From a virus: DNA of 35,777 nt. Shown here one piece after another: positions 10,811 through 31,210 of this stretch (position 1 is its first letter; the number at the start of each line of letters is the position of its first letter). The notes under the pieces are model-generated. The model did no database searches. It was not told the origin of the DNA and saw only the letters and a program-made list of their open reading frames with translations. The stretch is taken from positions 1 to 35,777 of IMG/VR virus record IMGVR_UViG_3300042691_026724. The stretch is one strand, 5' to 3'. Made by a program: the position numbers and the translations under genes.

Positions 10811-10886
10811 TGGCTCCCAGAGTAGGACTTGAACCTACGACCTAATCGTTAACAGCGATTTGCACTACCGACTGTGCTATCTGGGA
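10811..10886 (-). tRNA. tRNA-Asn (anticodon GUU), CCA encoded
   Basis: On the minus strand the sequence folds as a full cloverleaf: acceptor TCCCAGA with TCTGGGA, D-arm GCAC/GTGC with a GTCGGTA-type loop, anticodon stem AATCG/CGATT with loop CTGTTAA (anticodon GTT, Asn), T-arm GTAGG/CCTAC with TTCAAGT, discriminator G and encoded CCA. It overlaps the 3' end of the HNH gene on the same strand by 45 nt, so the HNH stop codon falls in the anticodon stem. Confidence 0.95.
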
Positions 10887-11282
10887 ATTGCGTTTCTTTC
10901 TTCTACCAGTTTTCCATCGCCATTCATTAACTTTTTTTACCGCTTCGGTTCTGCAAACATTACATCTGCATCCTTTTTTATAAAGAGAAACTCCGTGTTG
11001 TCCGCAATCTAAATCAACATATGTTTTCTTTTGATGGCAACTTCTGCATAAAATTTGGCATTTTTTTAATTCTTTTTTTCTTTTTTTTTCGCTTAATCCC
11101 CAAATAGCGGAAGATTTAACCGTTTGTTTATTTGTGTTTATTCTTGCAACTATGTGATCTATTTGAAGATTTTCATTGGACCCACAATTAGCACAAGGTC
11201 CATTTTCTAAAATGTATTGAGTTCTTCTTTTTTTATACAATTCGTTTTGATATTGGCGTCTTTTTTCACCGTAATAAGCCAT
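10842..11282 (-). CDS. HNH endonuclease, free-standing, 3' end overlaps tRNA-Asn
   Basis: The 146-residue product has a zinc-HNH core: Cys30 and Cys33 (CANC), Asp42-His43 (QIDHIVAR), then Cys79, Cys82 and His83 (CRSCH). A second Cys cluster (CRCNVCR, residues 105-111) heads a basic C-terminal tail, a layout common in phage free-standing HNH nucleases. Such genes are often mobile. Whether this one assists the capsid-gene introns or cuts elsewhere is unknown. The last 15 codons are read through the tRNA-Asn sequence and the stop lies within it. The start ATG lacks a visible ribosome site, and a hairpin plus T8 on the minus strand sits only a few bases upstream, which may limit expression. Confidence 0.8.
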   Translation of the reverse strand: MAYYGEKRRQYQNELYKKRRTQYILENGPCANCGSNENLQIDHIVARINTNKQTVKSSAIWGLSEKKRKKELKKCQILCRSCHQKKTYVDLDCGQHGVSLYKKGCRCNVCRTEAVKKVNEWRWKTGRRKKRNSQIAQSVVQIAVND

Positions 11283-11288
11283 ATAAAA

Positions 11289-11328
11289 AAAAGGGCGCTC
11301 GACACTTTACGGAGGTAGAATGTCGAGC
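11289..11328 (-). terminator. Hairpin with U-run on the minus strand (intrinsic terminator shape)
   Basis: Read on the minus strand, GCTCGACA and TGTCGAGC (11297-11304 with 11321-11328) form an 8-bp hairpin, followed by GCCC and eight Ts just before the HNH start. It would stop leftward transcription entering from the right. On the plus strand the same hairpin would be the first stem of the candidate RNA at 11293-11730. Confidence 0.55.
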
Positions 11329-11730
11329 TAAATCAGAATTTGCGTAAAATGATTTATGGTCAAAGAATATCTTTTTCTATAAATCTCGCAAGCAAAAAGT
11401 GATCGACTTTTAAAAAAAACGATCTGTGCCAAGACCTATTACACAAGCCTGTAGCAAGGCTTAAGTGAATGCTTTCTAGAGCAATCTAGAGTGATTATGG
11501 CCGATAGGGGCTCTTGTTAGAGGCTGAGACAAAGGGCTCTGGCTAATAAGAGGGTAAGTGATGACCTGACATGAACAAAGCTCCAATAAGACGGAAGCGT
11601 ACGGAGCATAAGATGTGAGCAAACAATCACCATACGAAATGAGCTGGCTCCGTTGGGGTAGATCGAGAGGTCTTTAAATAGTTTATAAGTGTGAAAGGGA
11701 AGCTGGATAGCCAGTTAACCCTTTCATGCC
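11293..11730 (+). ncRNA. Candidate large structured non-coding RNA (about 440 nt), class unknown
   Basis: No gene fits this 459-bp interval, yet it holds many local helices. They are GCTCGACA/TGTCGAGC (11297/11321); GATCG/CGATC (11401/11420); AAGCCT/AGGCTT (11445/11457); TCTAGA-GCAA-TCTAGA with a GNRA loop (11475-11490); CTCTTGTTAG/CTAATAAGAG (11511/11543); GCTCC/GGAGC (11580/11603) competing with ACGGAGC/GCTCCGT (11601/11647); GATC-GAGA-GGTC with a GNRA loop (11661-11672); and TGAAAGGG/CCCTTTCA (11692/11719) enclosing CTGG/CCAG. GNRA loops and purine-rich joints appear only on the plus strand, favouring that sense. Lying beside a phage tRNA recalls the large phage RNAs GOLLD and ROOL, but no match was recognised. 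It could instead be a long leader of the 11776 gene. Group I, group II, tmRNA and RNase P cores were not found. Confidence 0.55.
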
Positions 11731-11775
11731 AAAATTTCGCTTCACCATTGAAATAGATTGAAAGGTTTTTGAATT

Positions 11776-12264
11776 ATGAGCAGCGAAGAATATAAAGAAC
11801 AATACCAAAAACACACAACAAAAGAGCTTGGTATGACGTCGTTTCTAGACATCGTAAATAAATTTAAGCATTTCTTTAAAAGCTCACCTGATAACAAATA
11901 CTTAGAGAATTTTTGCAGATACGGGATAAAGTTTTCCAATACTTCTCCAGATAAGTTCAGACGTGCTCTTGAATCTATACTAGAAACACAAGACACATTT
12001 CCAAGCATAAGTGATCTTCGAATCGCTATAGAAAAGCTACCTCGCAGACCGATTGATTACATTGCAGCTCAATCCAAAGACGCACGGCAAGCGTTAGGAT
12101 GCTCTAAATGCGATCATTTTGGTTGGGTTAGGGCAATCAGTGAAGATTCATATGAAACTGTCTGCAAGTGCCCTTATTGCAACGGCAAGGGGTTAACTAC
12201 AGAGCTCCCTACAAAAGAGCAAGTCTATGCAAAAGGCTACACTCGGCTTAAAGTAAAAAAGTAG
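11776..12264 (+). CDS. Zinc-ribbon protein with helicase-loader-like N-terminus (162 aa)
   Basis: The ATG follows GAAAGG (11759-11764). The N-terminal 95 residues are helical and include FRRALESILETQDTFPSISDLRIAIEK, which resembles the FPPTIADL-type helix pattern in small phage replication proteins such as helicase loaders of the G39P type. The C-terminal half carries a possible four-Cys ribbon, CSKC (residues 113-116) and CKCPYC (about 136-141), followed by NGKG. A role as replisome loader or replication organiser is plausible because no other replication initiator is seen, but this rests on weak resemblance. The gene directly follows the structured RNA region, and a tiny ORF starts 2 bp after its stop. 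Confidence 0.65.
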   Translation: MSSEEYKEQYQKHTTKELGMTSFLDIVNKFKHFFKSSPDNKYLENFCRYGIKFSNTSPDKFRRALESILETQDTFPSISDLRIAIEKLPRRPIDYIAAQSKDARQALGCSKCDHFGWVRAISEDSYETVCKCPYCNGKGLTTELPTKEQVYAKGYTRLKVKK

Positions 12265-12455: not shown

Positions 12456-12546
12456 GGCTACAAGAATAAACGCTTTTTCTAACCTGTTGAAGCGGCCAAA
12501 AGAACCAGATTGCACACATAACTTTCATAACCTAATTCTTGTAGCC
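12456..12546 (+). promoter_or_regulatory. Long-range inverted repeat in the endolysin leader
   Basis: GGCTACAAGAAT (12456-12467) and ATTCTTGTAGCC (12535-12546) are perfect 12-bp complements, with an inner CGCTT/AAGCG pair. The element ends 17 bp before the ATG of the endolysin and just before its GGAG ribosome site. It could be a small RNA, a 5' UTR control structure, or protect the message. Confidence 0.55.
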
Positions 12547-29284: not shown

Positions 29285-31210
29285 ATGGCTGTTTATGCAA
29301 ACGTATCGAACCAGGTAGCTGCACTCAAAGAGTTGTACACTGGTGACGATTATTTAAAAGATCTTGTTTATAAGAAAAATCCTTAAAGATAGGGTCGTTG
29401 CATAGAAATATGTAAACGAGAATTCTCTCTGATTGACTTGGAAGTCCGGAAGCGGACAACAGGGGCCAAGGGTAAAGCTAGGCTGAACGACTAAGTGAGA
29501 GAACATCCCACAGGGATGATGCGATAGTCTGAACAACCCTATAACAAAAGAAGGGGTTGAGGGAGATCCGAAGAGATCGCCCCCATCAAAAGATGAGTAA
29601 CAAAATGTTTCTTGCACTTGTTCCAAAGGATGAAAGTCCTTCTGGTTTTGCTGGTAAGTACATTCCCGTACCTATCATTTATGGCACAGGCCAAGGTCGA
29701 TCTCACACTTTTTCAAATGCGCAAAACCAACAAACTGCACCCGCAGACGTTGCGTTCTTCGTATACAGAATTAGTGACTATCAACTCGTAACCATCACCA
29801 ACGAACTTCTTGAAGCGACAAAAGATAATGCTGGCGCTTTCATTGACCAAGCTAAACTCAACTTGGACACAGGTTTTAGAAACATTTCTAACAACTTGGC
29901 TCAAAACTTGTTTGCTTCTGGAACTGGATCACGCGGTCAAATCGGAAGCATTGTTAAGTCTGGAAGTTCAACTGCTACAACCATCACTTTGATTAACTCT
30001 GCGCAAGTTGTGCAATTTGAAGTTGGTATGTTGCTTGTTGTTTCTGCGACTGACGGAAGCGCACCTTCATCTGATACAGTTCAATTAACTGCGGTTAACC
30101 GCTCAACTGGCGTATTGACTGGTGTTTCTTCTACCACTCTTGCAAGTTCACTCTCTGCTAACTGGGCAGCTAACGGCTACCTCTATGTTAACGGAGATAT
30201 CGGGGCTTCTGGAGCTTCTGGAACAGGCAGCTACTTGGCTGTTTCTGGTCTTGCAGCTTGGCTCCCGTTGACTGCTCCTTCTTCTGGAGATTCTTTCTGG
30301 AACGTTGACCGATCAGTAGATCCTACTCGTTTGGGTGGTGTTCGTTTTGACGGATCAAGTGAAACAATCGAAGAAGCCCTCATAGACGCTAAACTTTGTG
30401 GCGTCTTTAAACTTTCTCTAATTGACTTGGAAACCGGACACGGCAACAAGGCGCAAGCGATTGTTATCGCAGCGTGAACGACTAAGTGAGAAAGCCCTTT
30501 AATTAGGGATGCGATAGTCTGAACTCGGAATATAGAAAGAAAATCCGAGAGAGAGATCCGAAGAGGTTTCTCCCGCTAGAAATAGCGAGTAACAAATTGG
30601 CAGCATTAGTAGCTCGAGAAGGTGGACAACCCGACATGTGCTTCACAAACTTTGCATCATATGCAGCGCTTGTGAAAGCTCTTGGATCAAAAGTACAATA
30701 CGTACAAGTTAAGCATGACGAATGTGAAATCGGCTGGGCTGGTATCACTATCCATGCAGCATACGGTCCAATCACTGTTATCCCTGATCGCAACTGTCCT
30801 GCTCAAGTAGCGTACTTGCTTTCTATGGATACATGGAAATTCCGTTCACTTGGAAAAGCTCCTCACATCTTGACCTACGGTCTTGAAGGTTTGGAAGGTA
30901 TCCGTGTTGGAAATGCAGACGCTAAATTTTGTGGCGTCTTTAAACTTTCTCTAATTGACTTGGAAGCCCGACAGGGTAACAGGGCGCAAGCGTAATTGCA
31001 GCGTGAACGACTAAGTGAGAAAGCCCTTTAATTGGGGATGCGATAGTCTGAACTCGGAATATAGAAAGAAAATCCGAGAGAGAAATCCGAAGAGGTTTCT
31101 CCCGCTAGAAATAGCGAGTAACAAAATTGCTCGAAATTCGTATCGGTTACTACGGCAACTTGATATGTAACGCACCAGGCTGGAACTGTGTTGTTCAATT
31201 ATCTCAATAA
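29285..31210 (+). CDS. Major capsid protein, spliced gene of four exons (428 aa)
   Basis: Exons: 29285-29383 (33 codons), 29608-30390 (261), 30600-30923 (108) and 31130-31210 (26 plus stop). Every exon boundary falls between codons. Joined, the protein runs ...DLVYKKNP | FLALVPKDESPSGFAGKYIP ... EEALIDA | AALVAREGG ... GIRVGNADA | LEIRIGYYGNLICNAPGW...VVQLSQ. The NPFLALVPK block across junction 1 is a family signature, and the EALIDA and NADA ends join sensibly. GNISNNLAQNLFASG-like text (NISNNLAQNLFASGTGSRGQ) and YGPITVIPDRNCP belong to the HK97-fold capsid family. Without splicing, exon 1 would stop after 33 codons and the gene would appear as fragments. A purine-rich AAGTAGGT precedes the ATG. 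Splice sites are inferred from intron structure and protein continuity. Confidence 0.9.
29384..29607 (+). ncRNA. Group I intron 1 in the major capsid gene (224 nt, no ORF)
   Basis: Core elements are visible: P3 TTCTCTC (29423) with GAGAGAA (29497), P7 GACTA (29489) with TAGTC (29525), P8 CATCCC (29504) with GGGATG (29513), P9 AACCC (29535) with GGGTT (29554) and a further hairpin GATC/GATC. The P5 hairpin GTCCG-GAAG-CGGAC and a CTTGG/CCAAG pair lie between. The 5' splice site follows U29383 (exon end CCU), which can pair with GGG at 29392-29394 and gives the expected terminal U-G, though this P1 is short. The 3' end is G29607. No endonuclease ORF is present. It differs from introns 2 and 3, sharing only the core. 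Confidence 0.9.
30391..30599 (+). ncRNA. Group I intron 2 in the major capsid gene (209 nt, no ORF)
   Basis: P1 is excellent: exon end AGACGCU pairs with the intron guide GGCGUCU (30400-30406) over seven pairs ending in the required U-G at the splice site. P3 is CTTTCTC (30412) with GAGAAAG (30488); P7 is GACTA (30480) with TAGTC (30515); P8 is CCCT (30495) with AGGG (30505); P9 is CTCGGA with TCCGAG. The terminal G is 30599. It is nearly identical to intron 3 apart from about a dozen changes, mostly in the P5-P6 region. No ORF. Confidence 0.94.
30924..31129 (+). ncRNA. Group I intron 3 in the major capsid gene (206 nt, no ORF)
   Basis: A copy of intron 2 with the same guide GGCGUCU, pairing with exon end AGACGCU at 30917-30923. 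The P8 change A to G (AGGG to GGGG) keeps pairing as U-G, and differences cluster in the peripheral P5-P6 region, so the fold is preserved. P3, P7 and P9 are intact. The terminal G is 31129. Exon 4 begins CTCGAAATT. The identical guide and target sites point to copying by reverse splicing or ectopic insertion. Confidence 0.94.

Follow-up and report, generated by a model that had tools for sequence, protein, structure and literature searches.

A large structured non-coding RNA candidate conserved beside a tRNA gene in a 36-kb phage and, wholly or in part, in its two closest relatives

Positions 11292–11731 (+) of the virus record IMGVR_UViG_3300042691_026724 hold a real, conserved, structured non-coding element of ~440 nt, situated between a tRNA gene and a rightward gene set. 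The element is best explained as a large multi-domain RNA of the plus strand, most likely structural or trans-acting, that would be released from a rightward transcript or coexist with it; the probability of this reading is put at about 0.4. A long cis-acting leader is the principal rival, and the two readings remain close. The window analysed here is the entire IMG/VR record (35,777 bases), with genes for a terminase, a portal-like protein, a tail-like protein, an ERF recombinase and a GH25 endolysin. Annotated phages give only weak terminase matches to it (<60% identity). Its two closest relatives, G001 (35,124 bases) and G002 (35,665 bases), are collinear with it, the maps being taken as circular. 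The G002 contig is broken inside the RNA and its halves were joined via circular synteny, so the 3′ part of that copy is less certain.

The sequence-only reading had described 11283–11741 as free of genes, and this was borne out: the stretch contains no ORF of at least 70 aa, and no reading frame stays open in the same register in both the window and its G001 homologue. On the plus strand the candidate region reaches a minimum free energy of -140 kcal/mol (z -5.76; 0 of 100 shuffles as low); the minus-strand fold has a z of -2.88. For the longer stretch 11289–11775, plus and minus z values are -4.42 and -2.61 in the window, -4.69 and -5.56 in G001 (minus lower), and -3.50 and -2.57 in G002. 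Structure is clearly above chance in all three phages; folding energy alone does not settle the strand.

Table 1. Features of the RNA candidate and its neighbours (window coordinates)
Feature	Position	Strand	Pairing or remark
tRNA-Asn(GTT)	10811..10886	-	beside the RNA in all three phages
HNH endonuclease gene, 146 aa	10842..11282	-	not conserved
Presumed RNA start region, A-tract TATAAAAAAAAGG	11282..11294	+	A/T-rich, then A6–A9 tract + GG, also in G001 and G002
P1 hairpin	11297..11328	+	GCUCGACA/UGUCGAGC, inner UUUAC/GUAGA; outer stem covaries in three phages
P2 compound hairpin	11339..11396	+	UUUGC/GCAAA, GAUUUAUGG/CUAUAAAUC, AAAG/CUUU around AAUAU
P3	11401..11424	+	GAUCG/CGAUC; GAUAG/CUAUC in G001
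P4	11435..11508	+	CCUAUU/GAUAGG; closes multiloop with P5 and GCAA-capped hairpin
P5	inside P4 multiloop (11435..11508)	+	AAGCC/GGCUU; AACCC/GGGUU in G001
GCAA-capped hairpin	11475–11490 (GCAA 11481–11484)	+	in P4 multiloop; missing in G001
P6	11511..11552	+	CUCUUGUUAG/CUAAUAAGAG; CUCUCGAUAG/CUAUUGAGAG in G001; 22-nt purine-rich loop, conserved
P7, enclosing P8, P9 and P9b	11558..11630	+	GUGAU/AUCAC; GUGGU/ACCAC in G001
P8	within 11558..11630	+	ACAU/AUGU
P9	within 11558..11630	+	GCUCC/GGAGC; GCUCU/AGGGC in G001
P9b	within 11558..11630	+	ACG/CGU
P10, GNRA-capped	11661..11672 (GAGA 11665–11668)	+	GAUC-GAGA-GGUC; invariant in window and G001
P11 long hairpin	11689..11729	+	GUGUGAAAGGG/CCCUUUCAUGC, inner GCUGG/CCAGU
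162-aa protein gene	11776..12264	+	directly downstream; 87% identical in G001, 78% in G002

The single-sequence fold carried over poorly to G001 and did not discriminate between strands; the helices were therefore curated by comparison. The hand-curated structure comprises P1–P11 (17 helix segments, 96 pairs; Table 1), a window-only hairpin being listed as an extra. Where at least eight helices had been counted from the sequence alone, the window accommodates at least 14 distinct ones, and both plus-sense GNRA caps seen at that stage are in place. Comparison with the relatives upholds the structure: two-sided compensatory changes affect 14 of the 96 curated pairs and one-sided changes 7 of 96, with 3 broken cells, counts that come from two to three sequences only and are favourable by construction, the helices having been picked by eye on the plus strand and the P1 and P5 arms realigned by hand. 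Covariation is strongest in P1, in which 6 of 7 outer pairs change across the phages; elsewhere P6 has two two-sided changes, and P5, P7, P9 and P3 have one each. Two G.U pairs of P11 in the window are Watson–Crick in G001.

An automated search for stems of at least 5 pairs with two-sided change was set against column shuffles: the plus strand has 12 two-sided cells (5.1 expected; 4 of 300 shuffles reach 12) and the minus strand 17 (5.4 expected; 0 of 300). The test supports selection for pairing without choosing the strand; if anything, it leans minus. The plus sense is probable, on the evidence of wobbles and loop composition. The curated plus structure contains 13 G.U against 2 A.C wobbles, a ratio biased by hand curation on that strand, and the purine-rich plus-strand joining segments reported earlier are confirmed, unpaired positions being 41% A, 25% G and 21% U (paired positions: 25% A, 28% U).

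The strong minus-strand result is also what would be expected if the functional strand were the minus one and the element were the leader of a leftward tRNA/recombination operon, ending in P1 and a U-run as a regulated terminator. P1 is continuous on the minus strand (a conserved C.A becomes U.G), and the interval from RNA to tRNA yielded no good leftward promoter, which also suits such a leader. The minus-strand U-run remarked on after the first hairpin does occur in all three phages (U6–U9), and with P1 it is terminator-like in G001; it nevertheless sits 4–5 nt past the stem in every case (spacers GCCC, UGCCC and AACC), a wider gap than a normal intrinsic terminator has, and a terminator scan of the window finds none there. 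With the G.U and A-rich loop evidence favouring plus, and with the window and G002 folding relatively worse on minus, this alternative is improbable.

At the corresponding locus of G001 lies a copy with 78% identity over 438 nt, flanked by tRNA-Asn immediately on the left and by the 162-aa gene on the right. Identity between the window and G001 is 67% in P1–P3, 72% in P4–P5 and 87% in P6–P11, against 81% for neighbouring gene DNA. In G002 the RNA is recognisable by sequence only over its first ~110 nt, a 5′ domain found by an HMM of the window and G001 sequences (E 3e-17); it scores 117.7 bits against covariance model R1, which was itself built with G002 included. The 3′ three quarters of the RNA are not recognisable in G002 by sequence. 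A layout resembling P6–P11, with a long hairpin after the AAUAGUUUA motif, was seen there by eye and rejected, since local alignment scores were no better than those of shuffles. In its 5′ domain the window is nearer to G002, in its 3′ domain to G001, so the element is mosaic. A more speculative proposal, rather unlikely as it stands, is that these RNAs form a new large phage RNA class built from exchangeable modules, in which a common 5′ two-hairpin domain is combined with differing 3′ domains (one in the window and G001, another in G002) and the separate RNA assembles or binds a partner as cage-forming phage RNAs do.

The RNA is known from only these three members, with a narrow known distribution and a mosaic domain composition. 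Among 23 terminase-based loci of phage kin, many of whose records are fragments, blastn, HMM and two covariance models found it nowhere beyond G001 and G002; models R1 and R2 gave zero further copies over 557 kb of phage relatives. Phage and plasmid records contain no sequence homologue of the full RNA (one plasmid piece is at chance level), and the first half of the G002 RNA has none in phages. Four scans of IMG/VR for DNA patterns built on 5′, middle and 3′ motifs recovered G001, G002 or both and nothing else, and scans with ORF162 and ERF returned the same two phages only, with no match in bacterial genomes. Model R2 had no match in two bacterial phyla (398 and 377 genomes), neither of which need be that of the host; the phage's tRNA and structural proteins pointed to no clear host.

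One terminase relative (G008) has gene-poor DNA of its own. At L040:3640-4190, ~540 nt contain short ORFs only and have low folding energy, the surrounding 838-nt gap reaching -0.305 kcal/mol per nt on plus; R1 and R2 do not find this stretch, and it has no Rfam match. At L040:2625-2738, Rfam recognises a tRNA with ~40 extra nt in its anticodon arm that ARAGORN does not list.

Rfam 15 gives nothing relevant for the RNA at the gathering threshold or, over 661 nt (11200–11860), up to E 10, in line with the first impression that no known RNA is present and that a new class is possible. Kinship with GOLLD or ROOL, which the nearby tRNA had called to mind, did not hold at the level of family membership: neither covariance model is reached at the gathering threshold or up to E 10. 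Both families are located near tRNAs and form RNA-only cages (PMC12286853). Like ROOL, a large ornate non-coding phage RNA often near tRNA genes (PMC12286853), the candidate lies near a phage tRNA gene, a trait not specific to ROOL; unlike ROOL, it matches the Rfam model, the sole basis of this comparison, in neither sequence nor structure. Like GOLLD, it would combine large size and a place near phage tRNAs with a division into a conserved region and a less conserved one (PMC12286853). It differs from GOLLD in lacking an Rfam match, in length (~440 nt against >800 in many members, about half) and in that what the three phages have in common is the 5′ domain rather than the 3′ region.

Unclassified RNAs of other phages provide a looser precedent. 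The most abundant transcript of ICP1 is a ~800-nt non-coding RNA beside the lysis cluster (PMC7567579), and phage K has lncRNAs beside tRNAs (PMC9241854). These are large, gene-free transcribed stretches by tRNA or lysis genes (PMC7567579, PMC9241854), which the candidate, known from sequence, resembles; R1 and R2 have no match in them at E <= 10. As a long gene-free stretch with secondary structure conserved in related phages (2–3 sequences), the candidate fits the loose kind of large structured phage RNAs, and it is probably a new class inside that known kind. A compact RNA of ~440 nt, carried by a genome of 36 kb and naturally swapping domains among close relatives, would make a tractable case for studying RNA and domain function. 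To our knowledge, few large structured phage RNAs are known, and their functions are mostly open.

On the preferred reading, a rightward transcript would open with the ~440-nt RNA and continue into the 162-aa gene. Its start is presumed to lie near 11292, at the A-tract; a promoter scan found no sigma-70-like promoter there. The RNA would fold independently and, during infection, be freed from the transcript or coexist with it, perhaps taking a structural or trans-acting role as in other large phage RNAs by tRNA or lysis genes. Such a role is tentatively favoured by how large and elaborate the RNA is, by the nearby tRNA and by comparable cases in other phages. P11 is not followed by a U-run, and the scan found no plus-strand terminator there or anywhere between the RNA and the 162-aa gene; the element is therefore a very long leader, or else a structural or trans-acting RNA that is cut out of such a leader, and a discrete RNA would need processing.

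The missing terminator argues for the rival reading, a real possibility, in which the element is a long 5′ leader that acts in cis on the 162-aa gene and those that follow and controls translation or read-through of its own mRNA. For instance, P1 and P2 might serve as a 5′ element of the antitermination type, or P11 might compete, through its CCUUUCA arm, for the gene's UGAAAGG ribosome-binding site. The RNA and gene share orientation, P11 lies 44–45 nt from the start codon in the window and G001 with the spacer stretch conserved, and the 5′ domain is the portion common to all three phages. A second structured, covarying element precedes the endolysin gene in the same phages, which also speaks for a leader. 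Yet the CCUUUCA/UGAAAGG complementarity is missing in G002 although the gene is kept, and no conserved expression platform is apparent. The alternative partners noted earlier for ACGGAGC (11601–11607), namely GCUCC (11580–11584) or GCUCCGU near 11650, can both be drawn, but the second partnership loses 2 of its 7 pairs in G001; conservation thus lends no support to a two-state switch, and the weakened pairing also counts against a leader. Typical leaders require much less than 440 nt of elaborate structure; if the element is a leader, it would be unusually elaborate for a phage. The 162-aa protein itself has no match in PHROG or Pfam.

The pre-endolysin element spans 12456–12546 (+), just before its gene, with the stem GGCUACAAGAAU/AUUCUUGUAGCC. 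It is near-identical in G001; G002 has a 15–16-pair stem of different sequence, in which the loop AACCAGAUU...CUUUCAU is conserved. The element has no Rfam match.

Of the two neighbours singled out at first sight, only the tRNA is constant in the three phages; the HNH gene is absent from G001 and replaced in G002. The tRNA-Asn lies 400 bp from the RNA in the window, directly adjacent in G001 and 700 bp away in G002. The HNH gene runs from the A-tract into the tRNA gene, where it ends; the corresponding slot is empty in G001 and holds a DNA methyltransferase-like ORF in G002 (L009:351-1124). The end of the slot ORF overlaps the tRNA gene both in the window (10811–11282) and in G002. Since the slot takes in different genes, the HNH gene does not belong to the RNA's system, which makes it highly improbable that the RNA is a ribozyme, an intron remnant or a guide-type RNA tied to that gene, even though the two adjoin and three group I intron-like inserts lie elsewhere in this phage. 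Rfam intron, ribozyme and guide-RNA models give no match up to E 10, and no split coding sequence surrounds the RNA. A group I intron (RF00028) was rejected, with no core match in 11200–11860 and the left neighbour on the opposite strand; so was the guide RNA of an HNH-bearing IscB-type nuclease, the HNH gene not being constantly linked (G001, G002) and Rfam giving no match.

The three group I intron-like inserts, each ~200–240 nt, lie at 29380–29620, 30384–30625 and 30917–31150 (+), within or beside one probable capsid gene, and have the core UGAACGACUAAGUGAGA...GAUGCGAUAGUCUGAAC. Rfam gives a weak group I match on copy 1 only (E 0.022). Copy 2 is absent in G001 and G002; in the window it shares 96% identity with copy 3 over 139 nt.
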